DNA of 64,000 nt from Sipunculus nudus (lineage: Eukaryota; Annelida; Sipuncula; Golfingiida; Sipunculidae), in assembly GCA_026874595.1 (NCBI GenBank), contig CM049306.1, positions 57,914,019 through 57,978,018 on the forward strand. The letters run 5' to 3'. A program made the position numbers and the translations under genes. Below are positions 19,651 through 52,896 of the stretch, piece by piece (positions within the stretch are counted from its first letter, which is position 1; every line of letters begins with the position of its first letter). The notes beneath the pieces were generated by a model. It was not told the DNA's origin. It ran no database searches and saw only the letters and a list, made by a program, of their open reading frames with translations.

Positions 19651-20377
19651 TCAGTACTCCATACATTGATCGTTAAGTACATTATCCTCATTGGTTTGGT
19701 GATCATCTCCAGCTTCACGAGCCAGCTCTAGTCGGATATTATTCGTCTTGTCGCTGTATTTTTCGTACGATCTCTTCCGGTTGGCTTTCTGTGAATGACT
19801 ACATTGTACGTTGATCTCGCCGTGGCCGTACTTCATGGAGGCGATGTTGGAGGGCCGCTCGTAGCTTGAATCAGCGTCGGTTTTCTGCCATAAGTTGGCG
19901 TTGGTGATAATTCCATTGAATCCCTTATCGATCTTGCTCTCGTGGCCTCGAGAGCTGTAAGAATCTGATCCTGTTTGTTGGCTTCTGGGCCTCAGTGTTC
20001 CGTTTCGTGCAAGATCAGCCCAGGCGTTCCTGGCTTCTTTGTAAGTTATACAACGGAACACACAAATGAAGAAACCCTGGAATGTGTTCGCAAAACAGAA
20101 AATATATTCGAACGCTAACTTGGCGTCTTTGATGGCGAACAGTCCAAACACCCAGGTGATGCCAAGAAGAACCATAATTGTAAATGTTCCACGAATTTGC
20201 CCCGTGGTCACGTGTGTCTCTTTTTCTCCGAAACCCGCCATTTTGTCTTTCGGGCGGGGCTGTAAGATCACTCTGGCTACCAGTATAAATATGACAAAAT
20301 TCGCTATCAGAATAATCAACACAGGGAAGAGTATTCCAAAGTAATAAGCCCATGGATTCTGTGGCGAGAAACGGCAC
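19651..20377 (-). CDS. EGF-aGPCR last coding exon: ECL2, TM5-TM7 and cytoplasmic tail
   Basis: Acceptor ATATTTCAG (minus strand, ending 20378). The exon opens with the ECL2 cysteine (CRFSPQNPWAYYFG), then TM5 ILFPVLIILIANFVIFIL, TM6 TFTIMVLLGITWVFGLF and TM7 FEYIFCFANTFQGFFICVF. The basic junction RCITYKEARNAW and a serine-rich hydrophilic tail follow, ending QCMEY and stop. The tail has no recognised docking domain. A minus-strand ATTAAA at 19425-19420 could be the polyadenylation signal. Start of the exon was set by the splice site and the phase of the preceding exon, not by an ATG. Confidence 0.95.
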
Positions 20378-23300
20378 CTGAAATATTGAAAAACTGATAA
20401 CTAAACACCTCTGTTTTACAACATATATATTTTTTTTGCATTTACGTTGTTGTACCTGGATTAATGAAAAAGGTTTAAATCAAAGACGAAAAAGTATTAA
20501 TTTGTCAGAAAAAAAGTAAAAAAAAAAAAAGAAAATTTAAAGCAATAAAAACTACGCAAGTTTTTGGTTTTACTATGCTTCAATACATGCTTTAGGTATG
20601 ATACTTGCAGACATGTAGCAAGCTACAGCGCTGTTTCCAGTATTACTCATTTCCAGTCATCTTGTAGAAGGGTGATTAGATAGAAATAAAACCTCTGCTC
20701 AACCTTATGCCACTATTATGAATGAATGGCAAAGCAAGTCTTTCATGTCTCAGTCATGTTAGGAAATATGTGGAAACAACTTAAAATCAGTTAAAACCAG
20801 CATCTGGCACATGAAAGTTTGATTAAAGAAATATTATTCATAGTTAACATAAGAAAATAGTCTGAAAACACTACACCAAGTACAAAGTATAATAAAAGTA
20901 TAAGGAATTGCATAAGTAAGAGAGTTGCAGCACCGGAGAACGTGGAGCACTTAAAATTTTGGAGCTTATCGGTGCTTATTCTATGGCAATTTTTTAATCT
21001 ATGAATGAATGACTCAGGTGTAGAGAGAGTAGTGAATATTTGACTTACTCAGCAGAGACGCCTGTGTAATGGTCGACATCAACTCCAAGCATGATGACCA
21101 CCACGACTAATGGTAGCCCTGTAATATAAAAGATCACATGTTTAAAAAACAGTAGAACCTTCTATAAGACCACCTGTCTTATATAAAACCAGCTATGTTA
21201 AGACCATCCTTGAGTGAACCGAAAGCATTCACAATGGTTACAACGTAACCGTTTAATAAGACCATCTGTGAATTATAAGATCACTTTTGTTCAGTCCCAC
21301 GGATGGTCTTATTACACAGGTTTCACTTTAATTACCAAAAAGCTCAATGTATAGTCACTAAATAATACAAATACATCGCACCAATTTAAACATCTTTTCT
21401 TTCGATGTTAGTTTATACGTGACCCCTCCTCCTCTCTGTTAATCTTTAAAGCTTCAATTATTTATTTTTTTTAAAACAATTGTGAAATGTTTCTTATTTA
21501 TTTATTTGGCTATTGCATTTTGTACATATCCCAAAAATTTGCTAAATAATCAAATTTGACAGATGTACCGGGCGGCTTTCACCTGGGATATCTTGTTCGG
21601 TCAATGGCTGTTTAACCAGCTTTCATTTCCGTGGATCGTGATTACAAAAGTTAATAATTTACATGAGGAATTGTATCATTAGATGGTATGAATACTGGCC
21701 CAGTGTGGAAATGCTTCAAGCTACACATTTAGAATACAAACTTTTTGAAATATCAATATTCCATTAAAAGTAAAACGACGGCTTTGTCATTACCACGACA
21801 TAGTTACTTTATGGCGTTAAATCAGTTTAATGACGCAGTGACAGTCTGTGATGAAGATCATTCAGTTGGTTCCTGGCCAGTTATTGGTTATGATTCGAGG
21901 AGGTGGGGAATAATTATAAAGTGCTCATTGAAAACCCTTGCTGTGGCTCTCCGTCAGCACTCACACACAAAAAGAAATAAGTGATCGCGATATGTCCCAT
22001 AGTGCTTGCAGCATTAGTTAATTTGTTAATCGAGTTTTGGGGATGCAATAGTAAATATGGAAAAATAATGTCTTCGTTGTGTATTTTACAGAAATTCAGG
22101 TAATAAATGCTGAAATATGTTATCATGTCTGTTTTCATGCAGACATTACTCGACGCAGTGCTCTAATACCAATGCATAAACTAAAGCCATACAGGTGTGA
22201 TTATTACAGATGACTCGGATATTTCAGTCCAGACTATTAAAGGAACATAAGCTATTAAACTTTTAACTGTCGTCACATTTCCCTAAATCATATTATCCTT
22301 TTAAAAATGGATTTTGACTGTTTCACAATTCCAGAAACATCAAACTTGTGGTAATCCAATGTGTTACCAATTTTCTCTGTATCATCGATGATAAGCAGTC
22401 CTCATTCTGAATTAAAGGTCTCCAGCATTTCATGAAAACAAAATTTTCTAATCAATTCCCAAATAATTATACCAATCTGTTGCCAGTTTGACAATGTATT
22501 TTCTCTCTGCATAAAAGCCATCATGCCAAAAGGGAGATAAAAAGAATATCCACTTTAAAAACAATGAGGCTGGTCATCCAGTAAAAGTACGCTTACTCCG
22601 TGTGGACATCAGCCAAACACATTTTAAGGTAGCGCAATGTTTTAAATTTATAATAGACCATAAATTTTACACGATTTGAACCATTTACAGTGCTTTTTTT
22701 AATGGTATACATATTTTTGAACTATTTATTTTTTTATGATATTTAAATATTTGAAAAAATTAAATTTTTAAAAGGTACGCTACTTCAGGTACCTAGTAAA
22801 AGCAAGCCACTTTTCATTGGACTAGTATTTAACTATATGAGAATATCTCCATAGCCATTTTTCGTTTTTCTTCTGGCATGTATCTATCTTGTTAAAAAAT
22901 GAAATCTTAATTTTTTATTTTCTCAAAATTAAAAATTTCAGTTGTAAGATGGATATCTTTTTTGAGAAAGTGCCATGTAGTTTAAAATTGGTCCACTAAA
23001 ATCGGCTTACAGGTACTGGGTTCTTAAATTAACGTATTGAATTTCTTCATTTTCCACTTGTGTAAGTAGACTGTTTTAGAATGCAATATTGATAGCAACA
23101 ATGATATTGTTTAAAATGATAATTTTGGAGAAAACGCTATACTTCATGTATATCTGACATATCTGATCAGTGAATGGGCCTAATTAAAGAAGGAAGTGAG
23201 CTTTGATAAATTCAAAGAAATTACCCCATGCAATGATGCATCTCTTGAGGAGGAAGTGGGATTCATACGAGATAAAGACGGTCACCAGCATCTGGTAGAG

Positions 23301-26300
23301 ATTGATGGCTTCCAGCAGCATCCAGAGGAAGGACGCCAACAGGAAGTAGTGAAGTAGCGCAGCCACGGCCACACACCCGCCATGAGGGAACAGCCCCGGG
23401 ACTGTGGCCAGGATGTACATCACGTTCAAACACAGCAGAGCGAAACACAGGTTGATCAGTACCCGGCCGCTGCGGTCCCCACGCAGTTTCCTGTAGAAAG
23501 CAGATTCGAAAGAGTACGACTCTGTTGGTTGAGTTTGTGTGCGGGAAAAATATGCCACCCACAATGCACCGGGGCTTCAAAATACACCAGCGGCGTAGGT
23601 ATACACGTAGAGAAAATGGTAATGTAGTCCGTTCAAAAATGTTCGATTAGCATTGTGTCCAGGCAAATTACATAAACATGGGTGTTTTTGTGATAAGGCC
23701 TTTACGGAATAACTAACATTTTGAACATATACGTATGTGAAATGTAAACAGAATTTCTTCCTTTGAAATGTAACAGATTTTGATTTTAAAGTTGATATTA
23801 GAGACAAGGAATCCCGGCCGTTCTACATTGGCAAACAGAAAGAGGTTCGTTTTTGGTAGAAACGACTTCTGGTTGACCAAATAGTACATACGTTGCAAAT
23901 TAGGAAATCAATAGTGATCAAGGGTAACTCATACGTTTCAAATTCCTAACAAAACCAAAGTTCATTTATAATTAATAATTCATTATTGTGTTACATCAAA
24001 TGATTTTCATTTTTACAGACACCACAAGTAGTACTTCATTCAAGGCATGAATTATGTAGTAAAACAGAATTCTACAAGGTAAAAAAAAACATCAGTGTGT
24101 GTCACAGAATATTTAAGATTTAAAATTAAGAAACATTCAATTAATCTAGTACATGTCTATCAGTGAAGCTAACAATTTAATAAGGAAAATCATTGTTAAA
24201 ATACTTCCAAACTAGCCCATAGTCTTTCACTCATGCCATATCAGACGGTCGGTTATTTTGTCATTTCTAAGAGGGTTATTACTATAGCAAGTGACGTACC
24301 TGAACAGTGCGTATGTCAGCAGTGTGATGATTAGTCCAAGGATTGACAATGCACAGCCGACATAGGAAATGACAGACAGGGCAAGCTGGTGACTCTCTGG
24401 GATCTTAGAGCCGGGGTCCGGGTCCTGTAAACGTAAAAACCTTGACTATTTCGTGTGCTCAATTTTCAATTTTAAATATACTTAGTATTCATCCGCGCTG
24501 CGCTGTCTCTCTTCAGCCTAATAATAAAATTAAGCAGCGCCCCGTCTGGAAATCTGGAAAATAGAAAAATAAGCGCATATATACCGAAAAAAAAACTGGA
24601 TTTCATATAAAGATGCTTTTAAAACGACTCCAGATTCTTATTATTCACCAAAGTTTCTACACCATGTGGGTGGGGGGGGGGTGGGGGGTTGGGGTTCAAC
24701 AATGAATTTATATGGTTTGTTTTTAATATAGACGGTCAGTTGTTTAAAAATACGACAGCCAGAACTTACCAGGAGAACAGCAAAGCTTGTCAGATGGTTT
24801 GAAAAACAAGTGGTCCTGTTGCTGTCGCTGTCGTTCAGGGTAACACCACTGCTTGACCATTGTCTTTCTGCAAAGAAACATAGCGTTAAAAAAAGCGCGT
24901 TCTTACCTTTCTCTATAGCTGATTCTCACTACACGTACTTGAGTATGTTTCTCCCTACACAGTATACATTCAAAGGAAAATCTGGCGACGTATAGCTACG
25001 CCACATATAAATAAGGCGAAGGGTTCAAGACAAAACGAAAGTATGGTTCCGTTTTACGTTATCAGAGTGTTCAGCTGTGTTTTAAATTTCAAGGCACGTT
25101 TAAAAATGGAAATGGTTTGAAAATAGCTTTGTATTTTGCATAAATACATTTTCAAGGGGGGGGGGGGTTATTGCTTAGAAATGAGAAAGGGACAATTGAC
25201 AGAAGCCCCCCCCCCCCCTTTCTCCCCTGAGACTATGACTTTATTTTTCCTGCTGATAGTCGGCCCCCGTTATATAATGACAAAGCTCTCTGCCTTAATA
25301 ACCTATTTTTTTATATACTTTTATTGAGCCACATATAATTGAATATGTATTTTCTTTATACAAATATATTTTTAACAGTACATATCACTGATATTTTACA
25401 TTCATTTGATTTTGACAATTAAAGAACATGCGATATGCTAAACATTTTGTTGATTATTACACATTTACTTTAAATTGAATGACGGAAATTATTTTGAAAT
25501 GTTCAAATTATGAGTTTCACTCCATAAAATGTGAGGGGATCAAAAGGCACTTTGTCCACACTCCTAAAAAATGAGGGAACATGTCCGGTTGCCCCCCCCC
25601 CCCCCCCCCCCCCAGTTTCAATCTAATTTATTATGCTGATAATAACACCTGCTACGTATCAAGAATACACAAATTAAGAGCCCATCAACCTATTTCCTCT
25701 GCTTTATTGTTTACTTTACTGCTGAAACCTCAAGGCTTAAAATACAGTTTTACATCACAAATTAAAGAATAAACAAAGCAGTGATAACAATGATGAGTTT
25801 AACTTATAGTGGATAAAAGTAAGTAATGCCCTCACCGCTTGATTTCCAGAAGACACACCGCGTCCGCAGCGCCCCCTGGAAAGATATAACTGTATTATTG
25901 TCCAGTGTTACACACCTTATAAAATTAAGCAGTCCTTCAATAAACAGGTGGCCCATGGGTCATGACGCTCAGCTGAATTTGACAAGTATAACGGTGATGA
26001 ATATATTAATTATTGATGTAATAATCTGGTTAAAAATAATATTTGTTAAGGAACCTTGATCAGTGGGTAGGATGACTTCCAGGTAACAGGCGAAGGTAAC
26101 AGCAGAAAGATTTTACAAAAAATCCCCAGATGCTTAGTGAGAAGTTTCTACGTTAAACTGCTTATACTTATAGCTAGGGTACTCAAATCATGTTGTTTCA
26201 CACAGCTCAATTACTATAGGTCACAGTGACCTTATTTTGGATATCAAAGGAGATATTATAATGATCTACCTTGATAATAAAAGAGGCATTACTAGAGCAA

Positions 26301-29300: not shown

Positions 29301-32300
29301 ACTGCTGCTCTAATTAATCGGTGTTGTTTTGTATGAATAAAATGTAAAACTGTATTTGAAACTCCAGAGCTATGTTAAATTTCCTGACAAGATATATAAT
29401 AAGATGCATGTTGTAATCGTATTGTCTTAATTTCCTCCTACGAAAAGGTCAATTTTGATAATGGATTGTAATTCCTGCGCTCCTCAGCAGGTATACACTG
29501 CAGTAGTCCAAGGTTTCTTTTGTTTAAACCGCTGCATGATATAGAAAGATTCTCTACAATACACGACCAGCGTGGGCACAGAGCAAAGCATTATAATCAG
29601 ACCAATGATAGCGTGGTATTGCATTATGAATCCAGCTAAAAATAATAAACATGTGACAGCTGTTCTCGTTTGACTTATTATCGTCCTGGCCAGAACCAGT
29701 GTAAAAAAACGGTTAAAATAGTCACTCCTGGGTCATGACGCTCACCTGAAATTTACATACAGACGATGCATGTATTAATTATTAATGTTATGATCTGATG
29801 AAAAATATTTGTTCAAGAATCCACAATTGGTAGAATGATTTCAAGAGTGCCAAAAGTCATGCGTTTTGCTCATAATCCCTAAAAAATAGGTTACAGCGAC
29901 ACAAATAAGTCAGCAATGACCTAATTTCGGTTTCCAATGAGATATGTTATGGACCTCCCTGAATGTACAGTTTGAAGTTTCTAGATTCAATTAATGGTTA
30001 CAATTTGCTCTCTGTTAACGGACGGAATGCCAGACAGCACGACGGTCGACGGACAAAGGGTTGATCGCTTTGGCTCAGGTGACTCATCTGAGCTAATAAA
30101 TTAGATTAATCATCAATTCGCATTAAGTTAAATTAATGAATTTCATAAAAAAGGTTGCGACGGTTTAAACAAAAGGGGGAAGGGTGGTCAAGACCCCCAG
30201 GATCCCTGATCTGGAACGGCCACGGAAAATAGTACGTTTGAAAATATGAAAAAAATTTTGTTTGTTGACGGCCATGGAGATTTAAGTTGACGCTCACCTT
30301 TGGGTTTGGCAGTGTGTAGGCTACAGGGTCAGATAAGTTGAAGATGTTCGCGTCTCCTATGGCGGCTGATATTACCATTCTATCCATGGCTGAACCGTAA
30401 GAACTGTTCTCCTTCTTCTGCAGGAAGAGCTTGCTGTTGGAATACAGCACGAACCAAACACGGACTTTGCTTTTGTTGGTTTGCTGGCTTGCTCCTTCAC
30501 GCAGGGCTTCAACAGGTATCCGTATCGATGGCAAGACCTGTCATCAGATGAGAAAAGTATTCATCAATTGACAACGGAATCATACGAAAATTGTACAAAA
30601 CTTGTAAAAAGTTAATCACTTCATAATTAATATATACATGTTAATACAATGTCATGAAGCTCATGATCTTATGCTTTATTATTCAGGAAAAACAGGTATA
30701 ACAGTATGGATTTTCATTCTGGCATGTAATAACTTAGCAATGGAGAAAGAAAGAAATACATCATGATTAAGAACATTGATGTGAATGGCTTATACATGTG
30801 ATAAAAGGAAATATATCCCTGTAACATCAAACTTGTTGCCTCTATAACTGTTCCCTAATAAAGAGTCAGGTAATGTATTTTAAATATGAAATCAACGGCA
30901 TTCCTAGATCAAATTCTAAAGGTTTGCAGTTATATTTGACATAAAAAATGTATAAAAGAAATGAATTCAATGTATTGTTTGTGCCTTACTATTCTCCGTA
31001 GAATAATTGTTGGCAGTTGGTTGTAAAGTCAACACAGGAAAAAAGATATCCGGAGAAATCTGAACCGAGCTTTTTAAAGTACAAGACAGGCTTCATTGTC
31101 AATAAATCAACAACCAGTGTTTACACAGGTATATATACCCCTGTGCCCGGGACATCATCCACACGGGATGCAGACAGTCGCTTCATTCCTTTAGGTTCAG
31201 TTTCGTATAACCTGTCCTTCGTGAACCCCTGAATGTCTAGAATATCTGTTTTACGTCAGAGCATGATCCATCAGGACACATTTTGTCCATTAAGCAGCAT
31301 AACTATAGAAAAATCTGCAAAACACTGCAATGAAACATAACACTATTTTAAAAAGCCATCGCATGTTTCATCTGAATGATTAAACGTATTTACTGTTTTA
31401 ACATTCAATGGATTATTCCTTTCCTATTTTTTTTTGGGGGGGGGGGCACGAAAATGACATGAAAATTTCACATTTATTGATTTCAAACCAAATGTGTTCG
31501 CTAAAATACCGTTTTTGGTAATATTTACTTTTGCGCTTTTGTTTAAAGATGTATACAGTTGTTTGAAGTTAGATAAAGTTAAAAGTATTTGATTCAATTT
31601 GAACTGTCAAATTAACAGATTACATCGCAATATTCAGACTATCTAATGTGTACGTGCTCTCGATCTTCTGTAGACACTTTCACTCCCATATAAAGAAGAA
31701 GGAAAGTTAAATTGTTCCTTTACTTGTTAATATTAAGTTATATTTATTGTGATAAAATATTTGCATTTATTTAAAAGAGAGTATGAAATTTATTACTCAA
31801 GTAATAATTGAATCGAGAATTGAATCGAGGGTAAAGAATAGACAATCGAAATCGATTCCAAGGCCTTTTATAATTCATAGGGTTACTGAATGTAATATCT
31901 GGGGATTTATTATATATGGTTTAATAATTCATAAGGAAAATAATACTTGTTCATTAATATGTACAGTTAAATGTATCTGGAAAGTTTGCACATGTGCAGT
32001 TTGCTCACTCCTTCTCATCGGACATTTTACGTGAAACATTACGAGCAAACCAGAAATGTGCTTTCTAAGGAATGCATGAAGCCGCCATACGGGGATGGCC
32101 CATATTGTGGGATACTCCCCAAGCCTTGTTTGTATTAAACTATTCGTCTTCATTCGTGCATACGTGAGTTCTGAACATTTCTGAATATTCCTTTGACGTT
32201 TCTGAATCCGGATTATATTCCAGATCCACACCAAAATCTAATCGATTCTTCATTGACCTATTTCCGAAATGGCATGAGATTTCATAAGATTTTGTTCATG

Positions 32301-33087: not shown

Positions 33088-33131
<44 letters not shown>

Positions 33132-39736: not shown

Positions 39737-39807
<71 letters not shown>

Positions 39808-42800: not shown

Positions 42801-45800
42801 GGCCCACTTTGTAGGACAACCTTCACTTATATTATGTAACCCTCTCCAGGCAGCTTGCCTTGGCTCAGCTTGGCCACTACTAGCAGGCTTCCCCTCTGCT
42901 CTGCACTCCGCCCCCTACCCCAGCTGGTGCATAAAGTAGATGAATGTTATAATTTTTTGTATTTGATTCATTCTTATTCTAGGCTGTGCTACATTTTAGA
43001 TTTTGTATTGTACCACCAGGGTTATAATGATTAAAGTGCACATTTAATTGTGTCCACAATATGGTGTATTGCTATATGAAAGTGTGGATGTTCATCAGAT
43101 AGTAATTCTTTACTTCAGAAGAGTAAAAACCTCACCAGGTGAAGTTTAATTGATTATTAATTCCAGTATAAAAATTATAGCTGAGATAGTAATTAGCACA
43201 ATGATGATGTTTGTCCCTCATTCAACTAACAGTGTGTTTACTTGATTTGAAAAGATGGTTTTATTTTATCAGATTTACTGAATCTTTTATTTCGGTGAAT
43301 TAAATTAAGCATGTATTGAAAGCTCCAATGTACAAAACTTTTCAATAGTGATTCAAAGAATAATTTTGAAGATGCCATGTTGTGGCATTATTTTCTGTTA
43401 AATTCACTTTAAGCATTTGTGATTAAAAAATAAATAAAATATATGTGTATGCATAATATGACCCTACATGAGCTACACTCTGGATAAATAAATAATGACT
43501 GCAACTTAGAATTCTGATATTTTAACTTAAAATTTCAGAATTTTTCTATTACAATTTTTCAAAAACTTGTAAATAAAAAAAATTGAATCTGATAAAAACT
43601 GTTAACTGAAAAAGTGGATATGCTAAAAAAATAGGCTTAAATATAAACTGATGGATATGCTAAAAAATAGACTTAAATACAAACTTAAATGCATTATTCC
43701 CTTGAAAGTGAAATAAAGGTATTAGACCATTCTGTCCACTTGCCTGTCCATCTGTAAATTTTTCATATGCATCACAGTATCTCAAAACGTTTACTGGTTT
43801 TCTTAATGACAGTCTTGTCAGAGTATTAGTTTTGTAATCATATATTTAAAACTTTACTATAACCAAGTAGGAGGGCCCCTTTCCTCTTAGCTTCTCATAT
43901 GCTTGTATATATGAAAAACATTACAATAAAATATTTTGCATATTTTGCATTTGGAAAAATTTCAAACTTCAGCAAAGCGCCGTGACCCATGGGTCCCTTG
44001 TTATTGAAACCCTACAACAATGCCAGTTTATTCATAGTTTCTATACACGTTACGCTCTTGTTCATCGGGCCTGATCTATCTTGTAGCTTTTCTCTTGGGA
44101 ACAAACGTCCACAAACACGCTATTTAAGGTACTATGGCTAATTCTTCTACTTTGCCTGCTGCTCAAATCAGTACCAAGTCACCTCTTTGGGAGTGTGCTC
44201 AAACTCTTGGTAAAACTTGGGCCAGGAGTAAGCGCGGACTGTTCAAATGGGACTAAAACATTACTCTTACGGTCACAAGTCTTGTATCCTGACCATCCAT
44301 TGCACCATCATGCTCCATATTGTAAAATATGTATAGTAAAATGTTGCACTACGACCCTTTTGATTCACAACTAAATTTACTCAGATAAAGAAATAAAAAA
44401 GAAAAACTGGGACACGTGAATCGGAAGTGTGTAGCAATGACCTTTCAATATAAACCTACAATTTTTACTGTTAAAACGAATCATGTGATTGAAATACGAA
44501 ATAAATGGAATGAATCATTTTTATGTCCATTAACAATTTATCTTATTGCACATATCAGGCAGATTCTTGCCTGCCATCATGTAGACATTATGATGATTCC
44601 TCTGTCATGGTATTGATTTTTTTTTTAATTTCAGTACATAACGTTGCAAAAATTATGCATTTCTCTTTAACTGTATTACACTGTTGGTAAATGAGAAATC
44701 AACAGGTAATAGATGTTAAACGGGTGACGGTCTGAAATATTAAAATACATATTAATAATTACTGTCATAGTACAAGTGCCAGGTCAGCAGATATTTCCTT
44801 TTTTCGTGTAGCAAGGTTCTAAAAGAGTCTGCCTTTGCGGATGAGGAGGGGGAAGGGGGGGGGGGGGGGGGGAGGGTTAATTCTGCATAATTATTGACTC
44901 ATATTGTCGCATGCCATATACATTTACCATACAAGTATGTTTTCTTCAAAGGAATTTTACAAGTTAATCTTCATACTGGAATGTATCAAAATAAACAAAT
45001 CAAGACGTTCAAGATGCGGTAAAAAAATGCATATTTTACCTTGACTCCTAGAAACAACATCAAGCAACAAGTATATAACCATGCAGGAACACTGGAGGAA
45101 CAATCATGCATTGAAGGAATATATGTGACGGTGGCAGCGTGTAAAGAGGATTTAGAAACTGCTACCCCACCTGCATGAGAGCTGAAGTATGATTGTTTTG
45201 TACCAACTATAGAAAAAAAACCGATGAACACTGGCTAGTGTAAAAAATACTTTTCTGATGAGTGATTAAATTCCATGTCAAAATGTTTGTGTAAACAATG
45301 TGAAATTACTAACTGAAGGAGTATGGTTTGTAATATCCACCTGAAATTTTGAAAGCATGAAGAAAAAAGTATCTTTTTATGAATGCAAAAATATAAGCCC
45401 TTTTGAGATAGCGTTATCTCTGTTAATTCCGGTATACTTTGTATTCTTTGACGCTCAACTGTCAACCAGGTGGGTATGCAGAAATAAACAGCGTTTGATT
45501 TTGTGATCCATGTGCCGTAGAAGTTTCCATGCGCCCATGGGCCAGGTGCTAGATTGACCGAACGTAATGGTTTTTTTTTTTATTTATTTCTTTTGTCAGT
45601 AAGATAATGTACCTGTATAACCGGCGAGGCAAATACACGTGTACTTTGCAGTCAGGTCAATGCAGTATGCGTTGTTCTTGCATGGAGAGGAAGCACATTC
45701 CTTAATATTGGTCTGGCATCTGTTTCCTGTAAACCCCGCGGGACAGCTGCACGAAAAGCTGTTTATTTGGTCGGTGCACTGCCCTCCGTTAAAACAAGGA

Positions 45801-48800
45801 TTATTGGCGCATTCATTGATATTAATCTCGCATGATGGGCCAGAGAACCCAGGTTTGCACGTGCAAATGTAACCTCCTATGGCATCGTCACAAGAACCTC
45901 CGTTCGCACAAGGATTTGAGTGGCATTCGTTTATTTGGTGCTGACACTGGATGCCGGCGTACCCTCTAGGACACAAACATTCGTAACTATTTAAAGCGTC
46001 CACGCATCTTGCGTTATTTTTGCAAGGTTGAGAGTCACATTCATCTATCTCCAGCTCACAATGTTTCCCTCCGAAACCACTGGGGCATATACACTCATAT
46101 ATGTTAACGTGGTCGACGCACCTGGCATCACCCGCGCAAGGACTGGATTCACATTCATCGATATTTATCTGACAATGTGAACCCGTAAACCCTCGTGCAC
46201 AGAAGCAGCGGTACCCACCCTTCACGTCTACACAGTCACCCGAGTTCTGGCACGGGTTTGACAAACACTCATTGATTTCTTTTTCGCATAATTTGCCAGT
46301 GAAACCATTTTGACAGGTGCAGATGTATCCACCATCTTTCATACTGCAAGATGCCCTGTTCTGACAGGGTTCAGACAGACATTTATCTTCCGGGATCTCA
46401 CAGTTAACTCCCTGATAACCCACAGGACAGGCGCATACGTACAGGTTCTCAAAGTCTACGCAATGTCCTCCGTTTAGACACGGATTGGACGCACACTCGT
46501 CTATAGGCGTCTCGCAAAATTGTCCAGTGTATCCAGGGAAACAGGAACACTTGTAGGCATCAACCAAGTCCTGACAGTTTCCATGCTGGCATCTCACTCC
46601 TTTACATTCATCTACATTTATTTCGCAATTATAGCCGGCAAACCCTCTGAGGCACTGGCAGGAGTAATAGTTTACATGGTCCTTACATGTTGCGCCATTG
46701 TTACATGGATGGGAAGCACACTCATCTACTTCAGTCTCGCACCGCACCCCAGTGTATCCATCCATACAGTTGCACCGGAAGCCATTGACGTGATCTTGAC
46801 AGTAACCTCCGAACATGCACGGATCCGAGGCGCACTCGTTGATATTGACCTGGCAGTATACGCCTGTATAGCCGCCGGCACATTCACAATCGAAGGAATT
46901 AACTTTATCTACGCATTTAGACCCATGGGCGCATGGAGACGAACTACATTCGTTTACATCTATTTCACACGTGACACCGGTAAAGCCTGGCAGACATGCG
47001 CAGTAATACTCGTCCAGTCCATCATGGCATGAACCGCCATTTTGACAAGGTGCTGATGCACATTCATTTATGTTAAATTCACATCGCATTCCATTAAATC
47101 CCGATACACAGTCGCATGTGTACCTGTTCACTTGATCTTTGCAAGAGCCGCCATTAAGACAAGGTCTCGATTCACATTCATTGATATTTTGCTCACATAG
47201 CTTACCTGTGTATCCCAATGGACAGAGACAGCTAAACGAATTCACGTGATCCACACACGTGCCGCCATTGGCACAGGGTCCGACGCCGCATTCGTCAAAG
47301 TTTGTTTCACAGTGAGTGCCTGTAAAACCGGGTCTACATGTGCATCTGTATTCGTTAACTTTATCAACACACGTCGCCGCATTAAGACATGGGTTTGAAG
47401 CACATTCGTTAATGTTCTCTTCACACACTGTACCAGTCCAACCTTCCCTACAGAAACATTGGAAACTGTTTACCAAATCAGAGCAGGTCCCTCCATTCAA
47501 ACACGGGCTCGAATCACATTCAGCTATATTTATTTCACAGTGATCCCCCGTGTACCCAGCAACACAAGTACAAAAGTAGCTGTCCACCTGGTCATTGCAT
47601 ATGCCTTGGTTTTGACATGGGTCAGACGAACACTCGTCTATCTCGCCATCGCAGTATGTCCCGTTAAAACCAGGAGGACACTGACAGTCAAACCTGTTAA
47701 CACCATCAATGCATGTACCCGAGTTGTAGCAAGGGTTCGAGCTGCATTCATCTATGTTAGTCTCACAATGCACCCCAGAGTATCCTGGATAACAGCGACA
47801 GGAGTAAGCGTTGATGTGATCTACGCAGGTCGCCTCATTCTGGCAAGGAGCAGACGAACATTCGTTAATGTTGGTTTCGCAATGGACTCCAGTGAAGCCA
47901 ATCGGACATTTACAACGATATTTGTTTATTTGATCGACACAAGTTGCCCCGTTAACACAGGGATCTGACTCGCATTCATGTATATCGGTTTCACATCGCT
48001 CAGATGTAAACCCCAACATGCAGACACATCGGTATCCATTGATGAGATCCACACATCTGCCGCCATTTCGACATGGGTTTGACAAACACTCGTTTATGTT
48101 TAATTCGCAGTGTTTCCCAGTATAACCCTCACTGCACACGCATACATACCCATTCAGCATATCAAGACACGTGGCACCATGGGCACATGGATTTGATACA
48201 CACTCATCCACATTATTCTCGCAATGAATACCTCCATAACCCTCAGCACACTGACACGTGTATCCATCCACGGAATCCATACACGTTGCACCATGGCGAC
48301 AAGGAGAAGAGCTGCATTCATCCACGTTGACGTCGCACAACCTTCCAATGAATCCTTTCTTGCACTCGCATCTGTAAAAGTTGGACACGCGGGGATACGT
48401 TTCTTCGTCATTTTGGAAAACAACTCGGTCCTTTAAAGCATTCCTATTGAGCGGTTCTGCCGTGTTCGTCAATACACATGTAGCGTCATTCTGGCATGGC
48501 CAAGAGGTGCAAAAATCATAATTTTGACAGTGGCTTCCAGAAAAGTTGCCTTTACACTCACACGTGTAGGTGGTGTTAGTAACGTTGTGGCAGATGGCGT
48601 CATTCAAACACGGACGTTCAATACATGGGTCATAGTTCTGACATCTTTTCCCAAAGAAGCCGCCAGTGCATTCACAATTGAATTCTCCATGTGATGTGTT
48701 GACGCATTTTCCGAAGTGATGGCAAGGCGATCTGATGCATGGGTTATAGAAGGCGCAATTTGACCCGTACCAGCCAGCTTTACAGTGACACTGATACGCT

Positions 48801-51800
48801 CGGCTCGATGTGTTGACGCACTTTCCTTCGTTGAAGCAAACTTCAAGAACACAGGGGTTAAAGAGCTGACAGTTTTTACCATAATACCCACTGTTGCACT
48901 CACAAATGTATTCTGTGTTTGAAATATTTCTACAAACCCCTTCGTGTTCGCATGGTTGGCGAACACACGGGTTAAAACGACCGCAGTTATTGTCATAATA
49001 TCCCTCAGAACACTGACATTTGTAGACGCTGCCAGATATTTTGACACAGGGTGCCCCGTTCTGACAGGGGTCAGATATGCAAGGGTTATAATGTTCACAA
49101 TGGCGCCCCGAGTACCCATGCTCACACTGGCATTCGTAACTGTCCGGGGTTAATCCAGTTTTAGAACATCTGCCGCCATTCATACAAGTTACGAGGGCGC
49201 ATGGATCAAAGTTTTGACAGATGGTACCATAGTACCCTTTTGGACACTCACACAAGAATATGGTACTTGATATATTACGACATGTGGCGCCATTCCTACA
49301 TGGTGCACGCATGCACGGGTCAAAGAACTGGCAAGCGGACCCGTAGTAGCCGTGTTCACAGCTACATTTGTAACTCTCGCTGGAGATGTTAATGCAGACC
49401 CCATGGACACACGGACGGGTGACGCAAGGATTGTAGAGTTCACAATGTTTGCCAAAATGGCCTCGGGCGCATATACATTTATACACCTCATCAGTTTTGT
49501 TTTGGCATATGCCTTCGTTTAAGCAAGGTTTTATGGAACAAGGATTGTAGAGTTCGCAATTAGATCCATAATAACCCTTTTGACATTGACATCTATACCG
49601 TTTATCCTCGTCATGTATGCACTGTCCCTCATTCAAACACGGTGATTTTACACACGGGTTGTATCGCGTGCAGTTTGTTTCGTACCAGCCTTGGCGACAG
49701 GCGCACTCGTACACGTTATCACCACGAGGGTAGCATCCGCCGCCATTTTGACATGGCGAGTACAACAGACATGCGTCCCGGATTTCGCAGTTGTCTCCAC
49801 TGTGACCTGGAAAGAAGAAAACACCATCCTCCTACACCACGAACATGCATCTATCTGAACTATAGATTATAATGATATTACAGGCTACTACTCTACCATA
49901 GATCTTCACATGCCATTGTCCCAGGCCAAGTCGGGCATTGATAGAGGGAACAGATCAAAGTATATATTTACAGTAAAGCACATCAACAGACTCAAGGTTT
50001 ACATCTAAATAGTCAGAACTGTAACATATAAGGCACATTGAGTCAAATATTACTTGCTGATATATCTACACTTACACAAAAGAAACAGGGAAGTTTAAAG
50101 AGAAACCGAATACACATAAGCAGGAATAATTAAATATACCACAGAATTCCATATACATGATCAGCATAGATGTAGCTACCGCTGAACCTATGGCGCTTTT
50201 GTTTACGGATGTTTATGGTACGAAGCTCCACGGGAGTCACACGTGATAAGTCACGTGGTCTTACCCTTTTCAGACAAGTTTTACCATATGACAGAAAACA
50301 AGAAGTTCCCGATGTCTTGCTATTTTACAAGTACATACCTCCCGTAGGAAACATCCAAGGTAATCAACGATGTCAATTTGTTTTAGGAGCTTAACTTCGT
50401 AGTTTTCCTTTGTCAATAGTTCATACGTATCCCCCCTCCGCCTTTTGTATACTTGATATTAATTTTATTCATCAATAAGTATAGCCTTTTATATCCACGG
50501 AAAGTATATATCAGAGATGATGTAATTACACATATATTAATCAGAAGTATATTATTTTGTAAAGCTTATTATGATTGTAAAGAATTGTAATCTTCAGTCA
50601 TGTTTTTATTGCATAACTGAAAGTATATATCGTAGAGCGCCGTTTTTTTTCCAAAAGCGTCGGGGAACAAGCTTTTCTTTCGGAAAAACGAATTTTTGGG
50701 AAATCGGTCAGGGTTCAAGTTCCAAGTTCGTACGACAGTTAATGATTCATTTATCGCCATTTTACTTAGGGAACACCGTGTTTCTTTTCGACCTACGTAA
50801 TTGACATAAACATATTCAATTTATTGCAGAGCTTGATTGGTAAAGATAAGTCTGACCTGGGGCGCCATAACGGCACACGCAACACGAATGAAAGGCAAGA
50901 CTTGAACGATCGTAGAGCCTTCAAATTATTTTAATTTTCAGATCTTACGTATGTTTAAACTTATTGAATACCCTAGCCCACGTCGCATATTAAACTTCCC
51001 TACTTCGTTTTATAAGAATGTTCTCTTCTCTCTATTTTTATTAACATCTAGATAAAGGCAGGCTTGTCATCACGGTTGAGCCGCTCAAGGATTGTCAGAT
51101 AGTCATCAAAGCATAACGACGTCCGTTTTCTCTTCTTCGACTCCATATCTCACAAGTTACAGCAAGACGATTGTGTTTGAGAAGTGTTATTTTTGACAAT
51201 GAAATGATGAATAAGCTTAATAACAGCGAGTTTAAGTAGATGACACAATTCCTCTTGGGAATGAACTGCTCTTTTTTATAGCCAGGCCGCATGCTTTGGC
51301 CTCGCACCTAAGCCTGTTCGAGCACAAGCGATGTATGAATGATACCTCCCCAATGTCCATGCGAGTAAAATGCTCATTTGTATGGCCTGGCATACTAGCC
51401 CAAGCGACGTGCTTCATAACTGATTATTTAAATATATTTGAAGGTGGGTACCTTCAAAGCTTGAGCGAGGATAAGTTATTTCTAATCTTATTTGGTAAAG
51501 CTTTTCCTCTGATAGAGGACACTGAGCACCTTTTATTCATGTATAAACGATCACTGTTTCTAAAAGATCTATTCCCAGTAATATGTGAACTATGGCCTAC
51601 TGAACTTAAGGTTATGATCTCTAGTTAAGAACATCCTTCAAGACATTCACTTTCCTGCAAACAGGATGGTAAATGATGTGCTTTAATGAAATGACATTAT
51701 TTTCATGTACTTCTTCTCACCAACTTTGTTTCACCATTGCAATCCATTGTGTTTGTATTTTCGGTGTATTACCTTTGTATCTCTTCGATCTAAGAGGAAT

Positions 51801-52896
51801 AAAATGATTACTGATAAACTGCTCAGCCGCTTTTTGGGTGTATGCCTAGCGTTGCGGCACCAACTGTAGTTTTCACACCTTTGCCCGGCGATAATATCGG
51901 CCCAGAACTAAATAATTAAGGATCACAACTGTGTTTAAACACCTGAGTGCAGGCCCTTGTGAGTCGTAATTACAAAACATCATTTGAGGAATTTACATGG
52001 TCACAAATGTAAGCCTAAAAGTGGTTAATAAAGCTACCCTCTTAAGAAGATAGAGAGTGGATCCACTGTTACAGTATTGCAAGGTTACAAGTTTCAAGAA
52101 GTTGTGGAAATAAAGACCGTTTTTAACCTTTCACGAACTCTAATGTTATTTTGTGGATTTTGGCGGGAGCTATAATTTGAAATATAGAATGTTTAAAAGG
52201 GAAGAAAACGATTAATTTGAAATAAAGTATACCGCCTACCTCTCGTGCAGTCACAAGTGAATGACTTGGTGGATACATTTATACATGCCCCGCCATTCTG
52301 ACAAGGATCGCTGGCGCACGGGTTTAGGTATTCACACAGATCCCCGTAATATCCAGGGGCACAACTACAGGTGAAGTTCACGTTGGATTCGTTCTTACAG
52401 GTTCCACCGTTCTCACATGGTTTGGTCGAGCAAGGGTTGTACGATTCGCAGTTTTGTCCGTAGAAACCGCTGGGGCAGTCACATCGGTAACTGTTATGGG
52501 AAACATGCTTACACGATGCGCCATTTTGGCAAATGGCGACCGCCGAACACACATTGAAAAACTGACAGGCGTTGCCGTAGTAGCCTGTACGACAGTCACA
52601 TTTGTAAGTATTATGGGATGTATTACGACACATTCCTTCGTTCTGACAAGGGCTTAATGAACAGCGATTGAAGTTGGTACAGTTTCTCCCCCAGAATCCT
52701 TGGGCACACTTGCATTCGTACGTGCCGCTAGAGATGTGATGACATTCGCCGAAGTTCTCGCAGGGATCCATGGAACAAGGGTTGAGGAATTGGCAGTGGT
52801 CTCCATAGTAACCATTTTCACAATCACAGTGGTATCCCGGAAAGTAATTCTGCGACATGCATCCCCCATTTTTACATGGCTTATCAAGACCGCATA
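19651..52896 (-). CDS. EGF-array adhesion G-protein-coupled receptor (spliced gene, 3' 14 coding exons; 5' end missing)
   Basis: Fourteen exons joined with consistent phases encode 2,377 residues to a stop at 19651. Order, numbered from the first complete codon in the window: 43 EGF-like domains (1-1660), hormone-receptor domain (about 1662-1727), GAIN domain (1728-1982) with GPS and predicted cleavage L1975/T1976, seven transmembrane helices (about 1995-2245) and a tail of about 130 residues. Family knowledge: adhesion GPCRs self-cleave in the GAIN domain and are activated by the tethered peptide that begins here TSFAVLL. Helix motifs HYFLLASFLWMLLEA (TM3), GITWVFG (TM6) and NTFQGFFICVF (TM7), and the TM3/ECL2 cysteine pair, are all intact, so signalling competence is likely. 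HRM+GAIN resembles ADGRL/ADGRC, but no cadherin, laminin-G, lectin or olfactomedin domain is seen. Ligand unknown. Confidence 0.92.
21049..21118 (-). CDS. EGF-aGPCR exon: TM4
   Basis: Only 70 nt. Acceptor ATATTACAG ending at 21119 and donor GA|GTAAGT at 21048. It reads GLPLVVVVIMLGVDVDHYTG then VSAE, the fourth helix and start of extracellular loop 2. The split glycine joins it to ...IIAWG of the preceding exon, as in other adhesion GPCRs (AWG-P at the start of TM4). Found by phase. Confidence 0.93.
21150..21329. mobile_element. pogo-like MITE
   Basis: The left end CAGTAGAACCTTCTATAAGA pairs with the right end, whose reverse reads AAGTGAAACCTGTGTAATAA. AAGACCA(C/T)C motifs repeat inside. It is non-coding and inserted about 30 bp upstream (minus sense) of the TM4 exon acceptor, in the preceding intron. 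Confidence 0.7.
23225..23490 (-). CDS. EGF-aGPCR exon: TM2 and TM3
   Basis: Acceptor GCTTTCTACAG ending at 23491 and donor GG|GTAATT at 23224; 266 nt, phase 2 in and phase 1 out. KLRGDRSGRVLINLCFALLC starts intracellular loop 1 and TM2. GGCVAVAALLHYFLLASFLW carries the conserved TM3 cysteine and the aGPCR HYF-LA-F-WM pattern, ending MLLEAINLYQMLVTVF. The open frame runs upstream of the acceptor but loses similarity there. Confidence 0.95.
24300..24424 (-). CDS. EGF-aGPCR exon: post-GPS stalk and TM1
   Basis: Acceptor GTTTACAG ending at 24425 and donor CAG|GTACGT at 24299; 125 nt. It encodes DPDPGSKIPESHQLALSVIS, then YVGCALSILGLIITLLTYAL-FR, the end of the tethered-agonist stretch plus TM1. 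Y-V-G-C-x-L-S-I at the start of TM1 is typical of adhesion GPCRs. Phase 0 in, phase 2 out. Confidence 0.95.
24770..24867 (-). CDS. EGF-aGPCR exon: GPS cleavage site and tethered agonist
   Basis: Acceptor TCTTTGCAG ending at 24868 and donor CTG|GTAAGT at 24769; 98 nt. It reads RQWSSSGVTLNDSDSNRTTC, then FSNHLTSFAVLL. The second GPS tryptophan, the third cysteine and the cleavage tripeptide H-L-T are present. The cysteine expected after G is V (residue 1958) and the one before N-H-L-T is S (residue 1972). Autoproteolysis is predicted between L1975 and T1976, releasing a tethered peptide TSFAVLLD. Confidence 0.93.
25836..25875 (-). CDS. EGF-aGPCR micro-exon: start of GPS
   Basis: A 40-nt exon, acceptor TCTTTCCAG ending at 25876 and donor GCG|GTGAGG at 25835. 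It encodes GALRTRCVFWKSS with the first GPS cysteine and tryptophan (C-x-x-W). Phase 0 in and phase 1 out fit both neighbours exactly, giving NPK-GALRTRCVFWKSS-ERQW. Confidence 0.88.
25945..27315 (+). repeat. Long dispersed repeat with internal degenerate tandem units
   Basis: The left end CCCATGGGTCATGACGCTCA(GCTGAA) and the right end, GTTAACGGACGGACGGACAG followed by ATCATTATAGCTCAGATGAC, are shared with 29728-30103 and, reversed, with 57752-58054. Between them are about six degenerate units of about 170 bp built on TTTCTGGCCAGT, ACCATGACCTA and GGTTTAAAAG motifs. No coding frame is present. It fills most of the intron between the GPS and GAIN exons of the receptor. Confidence 0.7.
27316..29727. 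other. Receptor intron, no gene seen
   Basis: Unique-looking AT-rich intron sequence between two repeat copies. Open frames here are short, lack splice context and match no domain that I recognise. Confidence 0.5.
29728..30103 (+). repeat. Short copy of the CATGACGCTCA...AGCTCAGGTGAC repeat
   Basis: It begins CTGGGTCATGACGCTCACCT and ends with GTTAACGGACGGA, GACGGTCGACGGACAAAGGG and CTCAGGTGACTCATCTGAGC. Compared with the 1.37-kb copy at 25945-27315 it retains both ends with a much shorter interior. It ends about 195 bp downstream (minus sense) of the GAIN exon at 30298. Confidence 0.7.
30298..30537 (-). CDS. EGF-aGPCR exon: GAIN subdomain B
   Basis: Acceptor CTGATGACAG ending at 30538 and donor AAAG|GTGAGC at 30297; 240 nt, phase 0 in and out, 80 codons. 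VLPSIRIPVEAL opens the exon; VRVWFVLYSNSKLFLQ and MVISAAIGDANIFNLSDPVA followed by YTLPNPK are typical GAIN beta-strand segments just before the GPS (family pattern: V-I-S-A-x-I ... L-S-x-P-V). Several sequons (NKS, NSS, NLS) suggest glycosylation. Confidence 0.94.
31000..33080. other. Receptor intron, no gene seen
   Basis: AT-rich intron sequence. It contains a run of G at about 31436-31447. Nothing coding is supported. The open frames at 31017-31232 and 31929-32234 have no recognisable domain. Confidence 0.5.
33089..33130. repeat. Compound (CA)n(TA)n microsatellite
   Basis: An uninterrupted CACACA run followed directly by TATATA, in the receptor intron. More TA-rich sequence follows at 33200-33340. 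Confidence 0.9.
33430..35030 (+). repeat. 1.6-kb minisatellite of about 31-32 bp units with 315-bp higher-order unit
   Basis: The basic unit is GGACAAAGTAGGAGCACAGT plus AGGAAACTAGAA, repeated some fifty times with variation (AAACAAAAGC, AGAACAG and similar subtypes). A block of about ten units starting at 33779 is repeated nearly identically from 34094 (period 315 bp). Smaller blocks of about 125 bp repeat from 34280. The minus-strand open frames full of L, S, F, P and C are only translations of this array. It lies in the intron between the 35231 and 30537 exons. Confidence 0.95.
35231..35381 (-). CDS. EGF-aGPCR exon: GAIN domain
   Basis: Acceptor ATTCTTCAG ending at 35382 and donor CAG|GTATGC at 35230; 151 nt, phase 2 in and phase 0 out. 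It encodes LTTAIDRYLSRVPLRGSNLT, then MRTGNIQVQAVDVDKQTKRS and AKFSGTHNEQ. The helix followed by a strand (N-I-Q-V-Q-A-V-D-V) matches the transition from GAIN subdomain A to B. Confidence 0.9.
36019..36113 (-). CDS. EGF-aGPCR exon: GAIN subdomain A
   Basis: Acceptor TTGATTTCAG ending at 36114 and donor AAAG|GTCAGT at 36018; 95 nt. It reads LAVSMINIISNLMDVNTSVI, then QSSEQDKTVGER, an amphipathic helix pair typical of GAIN subdomain A. Phase 0 in, phase 2 out, matching both neighbours. Confidence 0.88.
36541..37146 (-). pseudogene. Two adjacent exon-like open frames of unknown origin in a receptor intron
   Basis: Minus-strand frame 37146-36997 contains DRIIRPYEDANIFDISD and then a CTACAG|GTACAC donor-like site. 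Minus-strand frame 36802-36541, after an acceptor-like AAGTTGCAG, encodes about 87 residues with HGDVFQFGLRAHIYTP and PPNYPIAYGVGLSRLVMQ before a stop. The DR-[IM]-[IV]...DANIF-x-[IL]-SD stretch resembles the genuine GAIN exon (DRMV...DANIFNLSD), hinting at a decayed exon duplicate. The second frame matches nothing I recognise. Neither fits the phase 0/0 junction of the flanking receptor exons, so they are not proposed as part of the mRNA. Confidence 0.3.
37400..38271. other. Receptor intron, no gene seen
   Basis: AT-rich intron sequence between the exon-like frames and the 38272 exon. No repeat copy or coding exon was recognised. Confidence 0.5.
38272..38412 (-). CDS. EGF-aGPCR exon: start of GAIN subdomain A
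   Basis: Acceptor AATTTCAG ending at 38413 and donor AAG|GTAAGG at 38271; 141 nt, phase 0 both sides, 47 codons. ITAVEATKEAEAVKNMTENS, then STLTPKDVNKAANTVENMAS and FTLKDPK. The L-T-P-x-D-V...A-x-x-V-E-N-M pattern is the usual first helices of GAIN subdomain A after the hormone-receptor domain. Confidence 0.93.
39211..39482. repeat. Tandemly duplicated G/C-tract repeat ending in GGATCCGCCCCTG
   Basis: Two tandem copies at 39211-39325 and 39326-39449 share AGGTATTCATGCAGAAGCGG, long G and C runs, TTTCCATACCTGGGGACC and TTAGTCCTCCTGAGTTGGA. The block closes with CCTGGATCCGCCCCTG, the inverse of AGCGGATCC at the start. The copies differ mainly in homopolymer lengths. Open frames rich in G and P on both strands are read-throughs of this repeat. 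It is in the intron between the HRM and GAIN exons. Confidence 0.85.
39739..39805. repeat. (AT)n microsatellite
   Basis: More than 30 AT dinucleotides in an uninterrupted run in a receptor intron, followed at 39843-39865 by a short GT-rich tract. Confidence 0.95.
40074..40270 (-). CDS. EGF-aGPCR exon: hormone-receptor domain (HRM)
   Basis: Acceptor ACATGATAG ending at 40271 and a GC donor, GAG|GCAAGT, at 40073; 197 nt, phase 1 in and phase 0 out. It encodes GSCPSTETGGSWGTAKWKKT, CPHGPVEPEKPSYASRRCEL and TDGKVKWQQPVYDNCKE. Four cysteines and the W...CP...A-x-R-x-C...G-x-x-W...C order are the HormR signature found before GAIN domains in latrophilins and Celsr. No GT donor giving phase 0 lies nearby. 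Confidence 0.93.
40818..40952 (-). CDS. EGF-aGPCR exon: last EGF domain
   Basis: Acceptor TTTCATCAG ending at 40953 and donor AAGG|GTAAGT at 40817; 135 nt, phase 1 both sides. It completes the cysteine pattern of the previous EGF (GQHC) and gives EEEINKCTSLPCQNGGTCVN, then NFKCECPPGYSGVDCGTK. The calcium-binding I-N-x-C start is kept, though its E is replaced by K. It is followed directly by the hormone-receptor domain. Confidence 0.95.
41980..42090 (+). repeat. Dispersed repeat fragment, copy shared with 61412-61512
   Basis: GACCTGTATTGGGTTACGAA, then AGCAATCGAATGTTTAACAA and CAAGACTGTCTTGAG, closely parallel 61412-61512. The flanking GTCTTGAG/CTCAAGAC motifs are complementary, and similar ones occur at about 41470-41530, so this may be the edge of a hairpin-forming element. 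Confidence 0.6.
42092..42240 (-). repeat. Terminal fragment of the AGCTCAGATGAC repeat family
   Basis: On the minus strand it contains GTTAACGGACGGACGACGGA, then CTATAGCTCAGATGACTTAT and AGTCAGCTCAGCTA, which is the right end of the family seen at 25945-27315 and 29728-30103. The left end with CATGACGCTCA is not present here. Confidence 0.6.
42640..43653. other. Receptor intron, no gene seen
   Basis: AT-rich intron sequence. The open frame 42742-42939 has no recognisable domain and no splice support. Confidence 0.5.
43654..44001 (-). repeat. Dispersed repeat, copy 2 (internally deleted)
   Basis: It matches the left 282 bp and the last 26 bp of the element at 1-926 (same orientation), with the middle missing. 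The orientation given follows the terminal ACAAGGGACCCATGGGTCAC motif read from 44001. Confidence 0.75.
45613..49806 (-). CDS. EGF-aGPCR giant exon: 12 [YF][ND]PC-type and 24 Notch-like EGF domains
   Basis: Acceptor CTTTCCAG ending at 49807 and donor ACAG|GTACAT at 45612; 4,194 nt, phase 1 both sides, 1,397 whole codons in one open frame. The first 12 EGFs start N/D-P-C after an aromatic residue, carry many N-x-S/T sequons (NIS, NTS, NVT) and lack the calcium-binding start. The twelfth (DFCTSWPC) has an insert of about 30 residues between C3 and C4. The following 24 begin [DN]-x-[DN]-E-C and mostly fit C-x-S-x-[PA]-C (O-glucose) and C-x4-[ST]-C (O-fucose) consensus, as in Notch. The last EGF finishes in the next exon. 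The plus-strand open frames here are antisense shadows. Confidence 0.97.
50271..50364 (+). other. Orphan exon-like segment on the opposite strand of the receptor intron
   Basis: A strong acceptor CCCTTTTCAG, an open segment encoding QVLPYDRKQEVPDVLLFYKY followed by IPPVGNIQ, and a donor-like CAAG|GTAATC. The VLLFYKY stretch recalls the start of rhodanese-domain proteins of the TSTD2/TrhO type (V-L-L-Y-Y-K-Y), but I found no neighbouring exon for that protein. It may be a chance match, a stranded exon or part of a nested gene. Confidence 0.25.
51296..51790 (+). pseudogene. Possible decayed non-LTR retrotransposon 3' end
   Basis: The plus-strand frame 51296-51628 contains EDTEHLLFMYKRSLFLKDLF, reminiscent of the C-terminal zinc-knuckle region of LINE ORF2 proteins (VEDxxHFLFxCxxYxxLR), but without the cysteines. 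It is followed by a T-rich stretch and AATAAAATG near 51799. No reverse transcriptase core is present. The call is weak. Confidence 0.25.
52240..52896 (-). CDS. EGF-aGPCR exon: first six EGF domains seen in the window
   Basis: Acceptor ATTTTTTCAG ending at 52897 and donor AGAG|GTAGGC at 52239; 657 nt, phase 1 both sides. The first EGF begins VCGLDKPCKNGGCMSQ. Five [YF]-N-x-C-type domains follow (LNPCSMDPC, FNRCSLSPC, FNVCSAVAIC, YNPCSTKPC, LNPCASDPC), the last completed by HSGDNC in the next exon. Sequons NFT-, NIS- and NTS-like recur. The frame enters in phase 1 from an exon not found, so this is not the first coding exon. Confidence 0.95.

Follow-up and report, generated by a model that had tools for sequence, protein, structure and literature searches.

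A predicted adhesion G-protein-coupled receptor with a two-segment array of 43 EGF domains in Sipunculus nudus

The locus and the EGF array

Analysis of a 64,000-nucleotide stretch of the Sipunculus nudus genome (C1:57914019-57978018, hereafter the window, whose numbering is used for positions given without a contig; the genome comprises 1.43 Gb in 153 contigs) revealed a receptor gene on the minus strand, running from position 52896 to position 19651, for which splice-site reading of the stop-to-stop frames gave 14 exons (A to N) with matching phases in one frame. Joined, the 14 exons encode 2377 amino acids and a terminal stop, with no internal stops. All 14 acceptors are AG, 12 of the 13 donors are GT and the remaining one, that of exon D, is GC, while the junction phases are compatible at 13 of 13 junctions, an agreement that is not an independent statistic because exon phases partly guided the choice of splice sites. 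Independent support for the chain comes firstly from alignments with PDB structures, which are unbroken across the junctions from the middle of exon D to exon N, and secondly from EGF42, which is split between two exons, exon B ending in ...CLAGYT and exon C continuing with GQHC.

The EGF domains are encoded by the first three exons. Exon A (52240-52896) starts in phase 1 and carries EGF1-5 and most of EGF6, all of a distal, non-calcium type; exon B (45613-49806; 4194 bp) carries the end of EGF6, EGF7-18 of the same distal type, EGF19-41 and most of EGF42, the latter two being of a Notch/calcium type; and exon C (40818-40952), running from phase 1 to phase 1, contains the end of EGF42 and EGF43 and connects the array with the next exon. 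The distal segment, EGF1-18, thereby spans 48335-52894 (exon A and the first part of exon B) and the proximal segment, EGF19-43, spans 40818-48316 (the rest of exon B and exon C).

The receptor core follows on the same strand, beginning with a HormR-like domain in exon D (40074-40270). Exons E (38272-38412) and F (36019-36113) encode subdomain A of the GAIN domain, exon G (35231-35381) a further part of GAIN and exon H (30298-30537) its subdomain B. The GPS starts in exon I (25836-25875) with the residues CVFW and continues in exon J (24770-24867), which contains H-L|T, with predicted cleavage between 24791 and 24790, and the start of the tethered agonist TSFAVLL. Exon K (24300-24424) encodes what follows the tethered agonist, together with TM1, exon L (23225-23490) TM2, TM3 and the start of TM4, exon M (21049-21118) the remainder of TM4 and the start of ECL2, and exon N (19651-20377) the ECL2 cysteine, TM5-TM7, a cytoplasmic tail of about 130 residues and the stop codon. 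An earlier note on this DNA had proposed 14 exons joining 43 EGF domains, a GAIN/GPS and a 7TM domain in one frame, and this is borne out by the exon chain, the parse of the array, Pfam and the PDB alignments.

Regarding other features of the window, ankyrin-repeat open frames, the last of them with a SOCS box (Ank_2 1.6e-12, SOCS_box 5.2e-9), lie beside the receptor on the plus strand at 2062-9334 and probably belong to an ASB-type ubiquitin-ligase adaptor gene. A 31-base unit is repeated in 15 copies with 94% matches at 5446-5911, and the intron separating exons G and H holds a purine-rich minisatellite of 1.56 kb at 33467-35024, whose periods of 32, 64 and 315 bases are nested. RNA families and tRNAs were not detected in the window.

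A regular-expression parse of the joined translation gave 43 EGF units with six cysteines each, all 258 of 258 being present, and the Pfam EGF model matched the exon-bearing open frames at 3.1e-212 (exon B), 5.7e-36 (exon A) and 1.2e-10 (exon C). Chance is an unlikely source of these matches, since an HMM built from the 43 units detected no further EGF frame either within the window, where the next best hit had E=0.033, or across 80 kb of upstream DNA, where the best had E=0.21. The statement of the earlier note that the array is longer than that of Notch therefore holds, with 43 units compared with 29-36 EGF repeats in Notch (PMC8166818).

Linkers and sequence motifs divide the array at EGF18. 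The linkers are of five residues in 17 of 17 cases between units 1 and 18 and of six residues in 25 of 25 cases between units 18 and 43. A calcium-type C3-C4 loop was found in none of the 18 distal and in 24 of the 25 proximal EGFs, and the strict motif preceding the first cysteine in 0/18 and 14/25, respectively. Motifs for O-glucose (3/18 distal and 22/25 proximal; Fisher 4e-6) and O-GlcNAc (1/18 and 17/25; 4e-5), and for O-fucose (4/18 and 14/25, 18/43 overall; Fisher 0.03) follow the same division, the p values being descriptive of the class split and not a proof of it, since the border was noticed first and tested afterwards. N-glycosylation sequons within units number 13 in the distal and one in the proximal segment. 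The O-fucose consensus was that of PMC11990869, according to which it occurs in 20 of the 36 EGFs of mouse NOTCH1, a proportion near the 14 of 25 predicted here for the proximal EGFs.

As judged from these linkers and motifs, the array is composed of two classes, EGF1-18 of a non-calcium type and EGF19-43 of a calcium, Notch type, so that the earlier description of the array as Notch-like applies to EGF19-43 and fails for EGF1-18. Exon A, which contains distal EGFs only, still has Notch1 and Delta-like 1 as its best PDB matches, and the term non-Notch-type for EGF1-18 is thus based on motifs and linkers and not on the ranking of matches. At the class border, EGF18 has a C3-C4 loop of 35 residues, a possible hinge; no exon boundary coincides with this border, exon B being common to both classes.

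Outside the cysteines, distal units share a mean identity of 28% with one another and proximal units one of 37%, compared with 25% across the classes. Differences between units are more frequent at third codon positions (0.658) than at first (0.417) or second ones (0.434), as under selection at the protein level. No array inside the EGF exons was listed by the tandem-repeat finder, which suggests that the units are old and diverged. Internal block duplication was not detected at lags 1 to 9 in either half of the array (lowest value 62/1000 shuffles, at lag 1 of the distal half). Assembly stutter as the origin of the array is ruled out by the mean identities of 25-37% outside the cysteines, the best pair reaching 58%.

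The receptor core

The HormR domain named in the earlier note is supported with a borderline score, the Pfam HRM model reaching 26.0 bits in the exon D open frame against a cut-off of 26.2, and 22.4 bits in the joined core. The domain has four cysteines and aligns with the second half of the HormR of ADGRG6 and weakly with ADGRB3 (E 0.12); the predicted structure of the exon alone, at a mean pLDDT of 52.5, is uninformative. In the joined core the Pfam GAIN model scores 24.3 bits, below its cut-off of 26.5, and GPR128_GAIN_subdomA 23.9 bits, above its cut-off of 22.0, and the GAIN domain is further supported by continuous PDB alignments with the GAIN domains of ADGRG2 and ADGRG6. When the HormR-GAIN part was compared with PDB, ADGRG6 ranked first (57 bits), aligning from the middle of HormR through the GPS (query 31-314 of 314), and L3, G1 and L1 came next at about 30 bits.

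The 7TM domain matches Pfam 7tm_2 over model positions 3-250 of 250 (8.6e-47, joined core). Of the 7TM signatures given in PMC8584163, LHxxxLxxFxW and FxxxxxxQG are present and GxGxP appears as AWGLP, its first glycine changed. Among PDB chains the 715-residue core is best matched by ADGRG2 (2.5e-64), with which a single alignment extends from GAIN through the 7TM domain (query 87-594 of 715), followed by G6, L3 and D1. The 7TM domain alone, in pairwise scores taken from the best 60 of 62 rows, where chains of ADGRA, ADGRB, ADGRC and ADGRV are absent, gave 170 bits for G2, 153 for G4, 144 each for G6 and D1, 116 for L3 and 110 for L2, with lower values for E5 (96), G1 (91), F1 (89), L4 (81) and E1 (78). 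Among the solved receptors in the matches listed, the core is thus closest to the ADGRG2/4/6-ADGRD1 side, and the gene is, on its predicted domains, a real adhesion GPCR (class B2) with an unusual ectodomain. The family comparison of the earlier note left out these closest relatives, and its linking of HormR plus GAIN to ADGRL, ADGRB and ADGRC does not stand, as ADGRG4 also has an ectodomain of SEA-HormR-GAIN (PMC13197933).

The GPS is matched by Pfam at 5.9e-13 in the joined core, and its HxS/T triad adjoins TM1, the sequence being NHL|TSFAVLL at residues 1975/1976. The whole region, CVFWKSSERQWSSSGVTLNDSDSNRTTCFSNHL|TSFAVLL, contains two cysteines, not four: missing are the one that follows the glycine (GC to GV) and the second one of the CxC motif (CxC to CxS), a pair that would form one disulfide. 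Both of these cysteines are kept in five of five other adhesion-GPCR loci of the genome that were compared, namely the three best core matches on C16, with the whole GPS, and two multi-exon receptors on C4 and C10, with part of the GPS. The GPS region of the receptor has retained the His, the Thr, the Gly and the Phe of CVFW, as well as a hydrophobic agonist; by comparison with ADGRL1, this Phe is presumably the residue numbered F803 in the study cited next. In that study, F803 is described as orienting the GPS His in cleavage-competent receptors, the HxS/T motif by itself as insufficient for cleavage, and the Gly-Cys stretch by the GPS as supporting the cleavage-competent state, its disulfide being kept in all human GAIN domains (PMC13062082), unlike in this receptor.

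Self-cleavage at H-L|T is expected to be possible but is not claimed, because the GPS has lost one disulfide that human GAIN domains all keep. The same loss, together with the insufficiency of HxS/T and the role of Gly-Cys in the cleavage-competent state, speaks for a single receptor that is uncleaved and/or serves chiefly for adhesion or as a co-receptor, its tethered agonist working without loss of the fragment; had cleavage been abandoned, however, the retention of His, Thr, Phe, Gly and a hydrophobic agonist would be unexpected, and we regard such a receptor as unlikely.

Related loci and gene boundaries

A search of the genome with the core gave 62 matches, nine of which are the receptor's own exons, and no close paralogue is present in the 1.43 Gb among the matches listed. 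Identity to the other matches does not exceed 34% where the alignment is long, though short stretches of 7TM exons reach 52%. Some of these matches are exons, located on C16 and C6, but most are long open frames without introns, and the one of the latter that was read (L001) looks Methuselah-like. The best of them, with 34% identity, lies at C16:41.27 Mb. Four loci on C16 (L026, L027, L031 and L033) have a HormR-like region, GAIN, GPS and TM1, and by eye two of the C16 loci have C-type-lectin-like frames in their vicinity and one has an Ig-like frame. These C16 adhesion GPCRs are the best other core matches, but differ from the receptor in having a four-cysteine GPS and HormR to TM1 within one open frame, and no EGF match (E 0.1 or better) was found in the 10 kb upstream of three of them. 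Elsewhere, 7tm_2 matches in long single open frames are clustered at C17:20.25-20.45 Mb and C14:8.4-8.9 Mb, many of the C17 frames being near 790 residues and several matches near-equal in score, suggesting recent tandem expansion.

The distal EGF exon gave at least 159 matches to EGF loci in the genome (150 of 1077 candidates scored). Of 92 listed EGF positions, just the receptor's own three lie within 500 kb of any of 115 7tm_2 positions, both lists being lower bounds and therefore no proof that a second EGF-7TM locus is absent. The best other distal-type array among the matches listed is found at C1:69.37 Mb, with 44% identity and the same 'NPC' linkers; at C1:69369000-69377860 (L040 and L041), two open frames with 5 and 11 EGFs of the distal type stand behind a stretch that is FN3-like by eye, with a further single EGF frame about 5.5 kb on. 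No 7TM core match was detected there on the plus strand of the 30 kb read. The distal tip module would thus occur in a second context, which fits domain shuffling.

Regarding the 5' end, exon A begins in phase 1 and the end of the gene lies beyond the window model, so that the earlier designation of the module as complete is apt for the receptor core and not for the gene, its 5' exon being absent from the model. A stricter scan of the window for a signal-peptide first exon found none. In the 91 kb upstream, two distinct places (three rows) pass the filter for a signal-peptide first exon with a phase-1 donor, the nearer of which lies 13 kb away at L009:2104-2044 and, joined to exon A, would read METLLINICLMVITLPITVK-I-CGLDKPC. 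Because control DNA yielded nine such look-alike rows in 160 kb of strand, at least as frequent as those upstream, this candidate is treated as a lead only.

No signal-peptide-like first exon was found from exon C to exon D; the intron between exons B and C, where the earlier note had considered an alternative start and stop, by contrast contains both a candidate start and a read-through stop. The candidate start at 45082-45040 (14 codons, hydrophobicity 2.63, good donor score of 4.0) could begin a short receptor with one EGF. It ends in phase 1 and could splice to exon C or D, and this, the 4.66-kb length of the intron with its 13 AATAAA/ATTAAA sites, and the array at C1:69.37 Mb, where a related distal-type segment with an FN3-like stretch occurs with no core match on the plus strand of the 30 kb read, would be in keeping with two neighbouring genes or two promoters, whose products, a secreted or membrane EGF-array protein (A-B or A-C) and a short receptor (C-N or D-N), merely look joined. 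EGF42, however, begins in exon B and receives its last cysteine from exon C; only 547 bp separate this exon from the HormR exon, it reads through to its donor with no stop, and it ends in the phase 1 in which exon D starts; first-exon look-alikes, moreover, occur at about nine rows per 160 kb in control DNA, and we consider separate genes or promoters very improbable. A locus with two products, the full receptor and a secreted EGF1-42 serving as decoy or ligand, might be read from the stop after five codons past the exon B donor (starting 15 bases beyond it) and the AATAAA on the minus strand at 45588 (25 bases beyond the donor, after that stop), but is highly unlikely, as such hexamers are common in this intron and the one at 45588 may be due to chance, and as the final EGF domain of the secreted product would be unfinished.

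A single gene joining the EGF and receptor exons is the best reading, because EGF42 is interrupted by the end of exon B and finished in exon C, which also supplies EGF43 and matches the phase of the HormR exon. We assign a probability of roughly 0.7 to the presence of one gene encoding an adhesion GPCR with a two-segment arm of 43 EGFs, a HormR, a GAIN and a 7TM domain related to those of ADGRG2/4/6 and ADGRD1.

Proposed function and comparison with known receptors

In such a receptor the N-terminal fragment would consist of 18 non-calcium EGFs outermost, 25 calcium-binding Notch-type EGFs, and then HormR and GAIN, forming a long arm that could reach a putative ligand on a neighbouring cell or in the matrix. 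The distal segment, with no calcium sites and with N-glycan sequons, is probably a binding or spacer tip, and since the calcium-type proximal segment should be stiff, a pull on the tip would reach HormR-GAIN. GAIN would probably self-cleave at H-L|T, with the two fragments remaining together non-covalently, and binding plus pull would then free TSFAVLL and activate the 7TM domain. Under this model, cells might use the receptor to sense contact or a pulling force, and the role as mechanosensor put forward in the earlier note is likewise an inference.

As a more far-reaching and rather doubtful proposal, the gene would be the founding member of an undescribed adhesion-GPCR subfamily, in which domain shuffling brought a Notch-type arm decorated with O-glycans and an 18-EGF non-calcium tip to an ADGRG/D-like core with one GPS disulfide lost, and in which contact or pull, modulated as in Notch by O-fucose and O-glucose, would free the tethered agonist and lead from Notch-style reading of contact to G-protein signalling. 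If expressed as modelled, the receptor would equip a GPCR with an EGF arm of great length, coupling Notch-type EGFs and their glycan code to a tethered-agonist receptor, and would be a naturally occurring system in which to ask how the length of the arm, its stiffening by calcium and the GPS disulfide determine the force that frees the agonist. It also suggests that the shuffling of adhesion-GPCR ectodomains extends beyond the vertebrate set.

The receptor belongs to a known class, and its two-segment 43-EGF arrangement appears not to have been described in the open-licence literature, where no description of dozens of EGFs combined with HormR-GAIN-7TM was found. In that literature, varied ectodomains are described for sponge and amphioxus adhesion GPCRs, with EGF named in figure legends, the HormR-GAIN-7TM combination predates animals, and an expansion of adhesion GPCRs in octopus is noted with leucine-rich repeats.

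Among the solved structures, the closest 7TM sequences are those of ADGRG2, ADGRG4, ADGRG6 and ADGRD1, with ADGRG6 closest for HormR-GAIN, and all share a tethered agonist after the GPS. The ectodomains of this group carry pentraxin, CUB or, as in ADGRG4, SEA modules and are not known to have EGF arrays; here, neither the exon A-D open frames nor the joined core gave a Pfam match to pentraxin, CUB or SEA.

ADGRC receptors (CELSR/Flamingo) have few EGFs. As in the present receptor, a single ADGRC protein has EGFs ahead of HormR, GAIN and 7TM (PMC13197933), but these receptors carry cadherin repeats and laminin-G, for which the open frames of exons A-D gave no Pfam match. ADGRE (EMR/CD97) and ADGRL4 similarly have EGF modules ahead of GAIN-7TM, with a lower 7TM likeness (96 bits for E5, 81 for L4 and 78 for E1). 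Neither is known to carry a HormR, a point also made in the earlier note, and the ADGRE receptors have few EGFs, as against 43 EGFs and a HormR-like domain here. CD97 has 3 to 5 EGFs, and for this receptor (ADGRE5) the EGFs have been argued to transmit ligand force to GAIN, with stiffening by calcium (PMC8191316).

With regard to Notch, exon B has its best matches in structures of Delta-like 1, Notch1 and Notch2, and the density of O-fucose motifs in the proximal segment is NOTCH1-like. Notch proteins have LNR, a single TM and an ankyrin domain, whereas the frames of exons A-D contain no LNR match and the array leads instead into HormR, GAIN and a 7TM domain.
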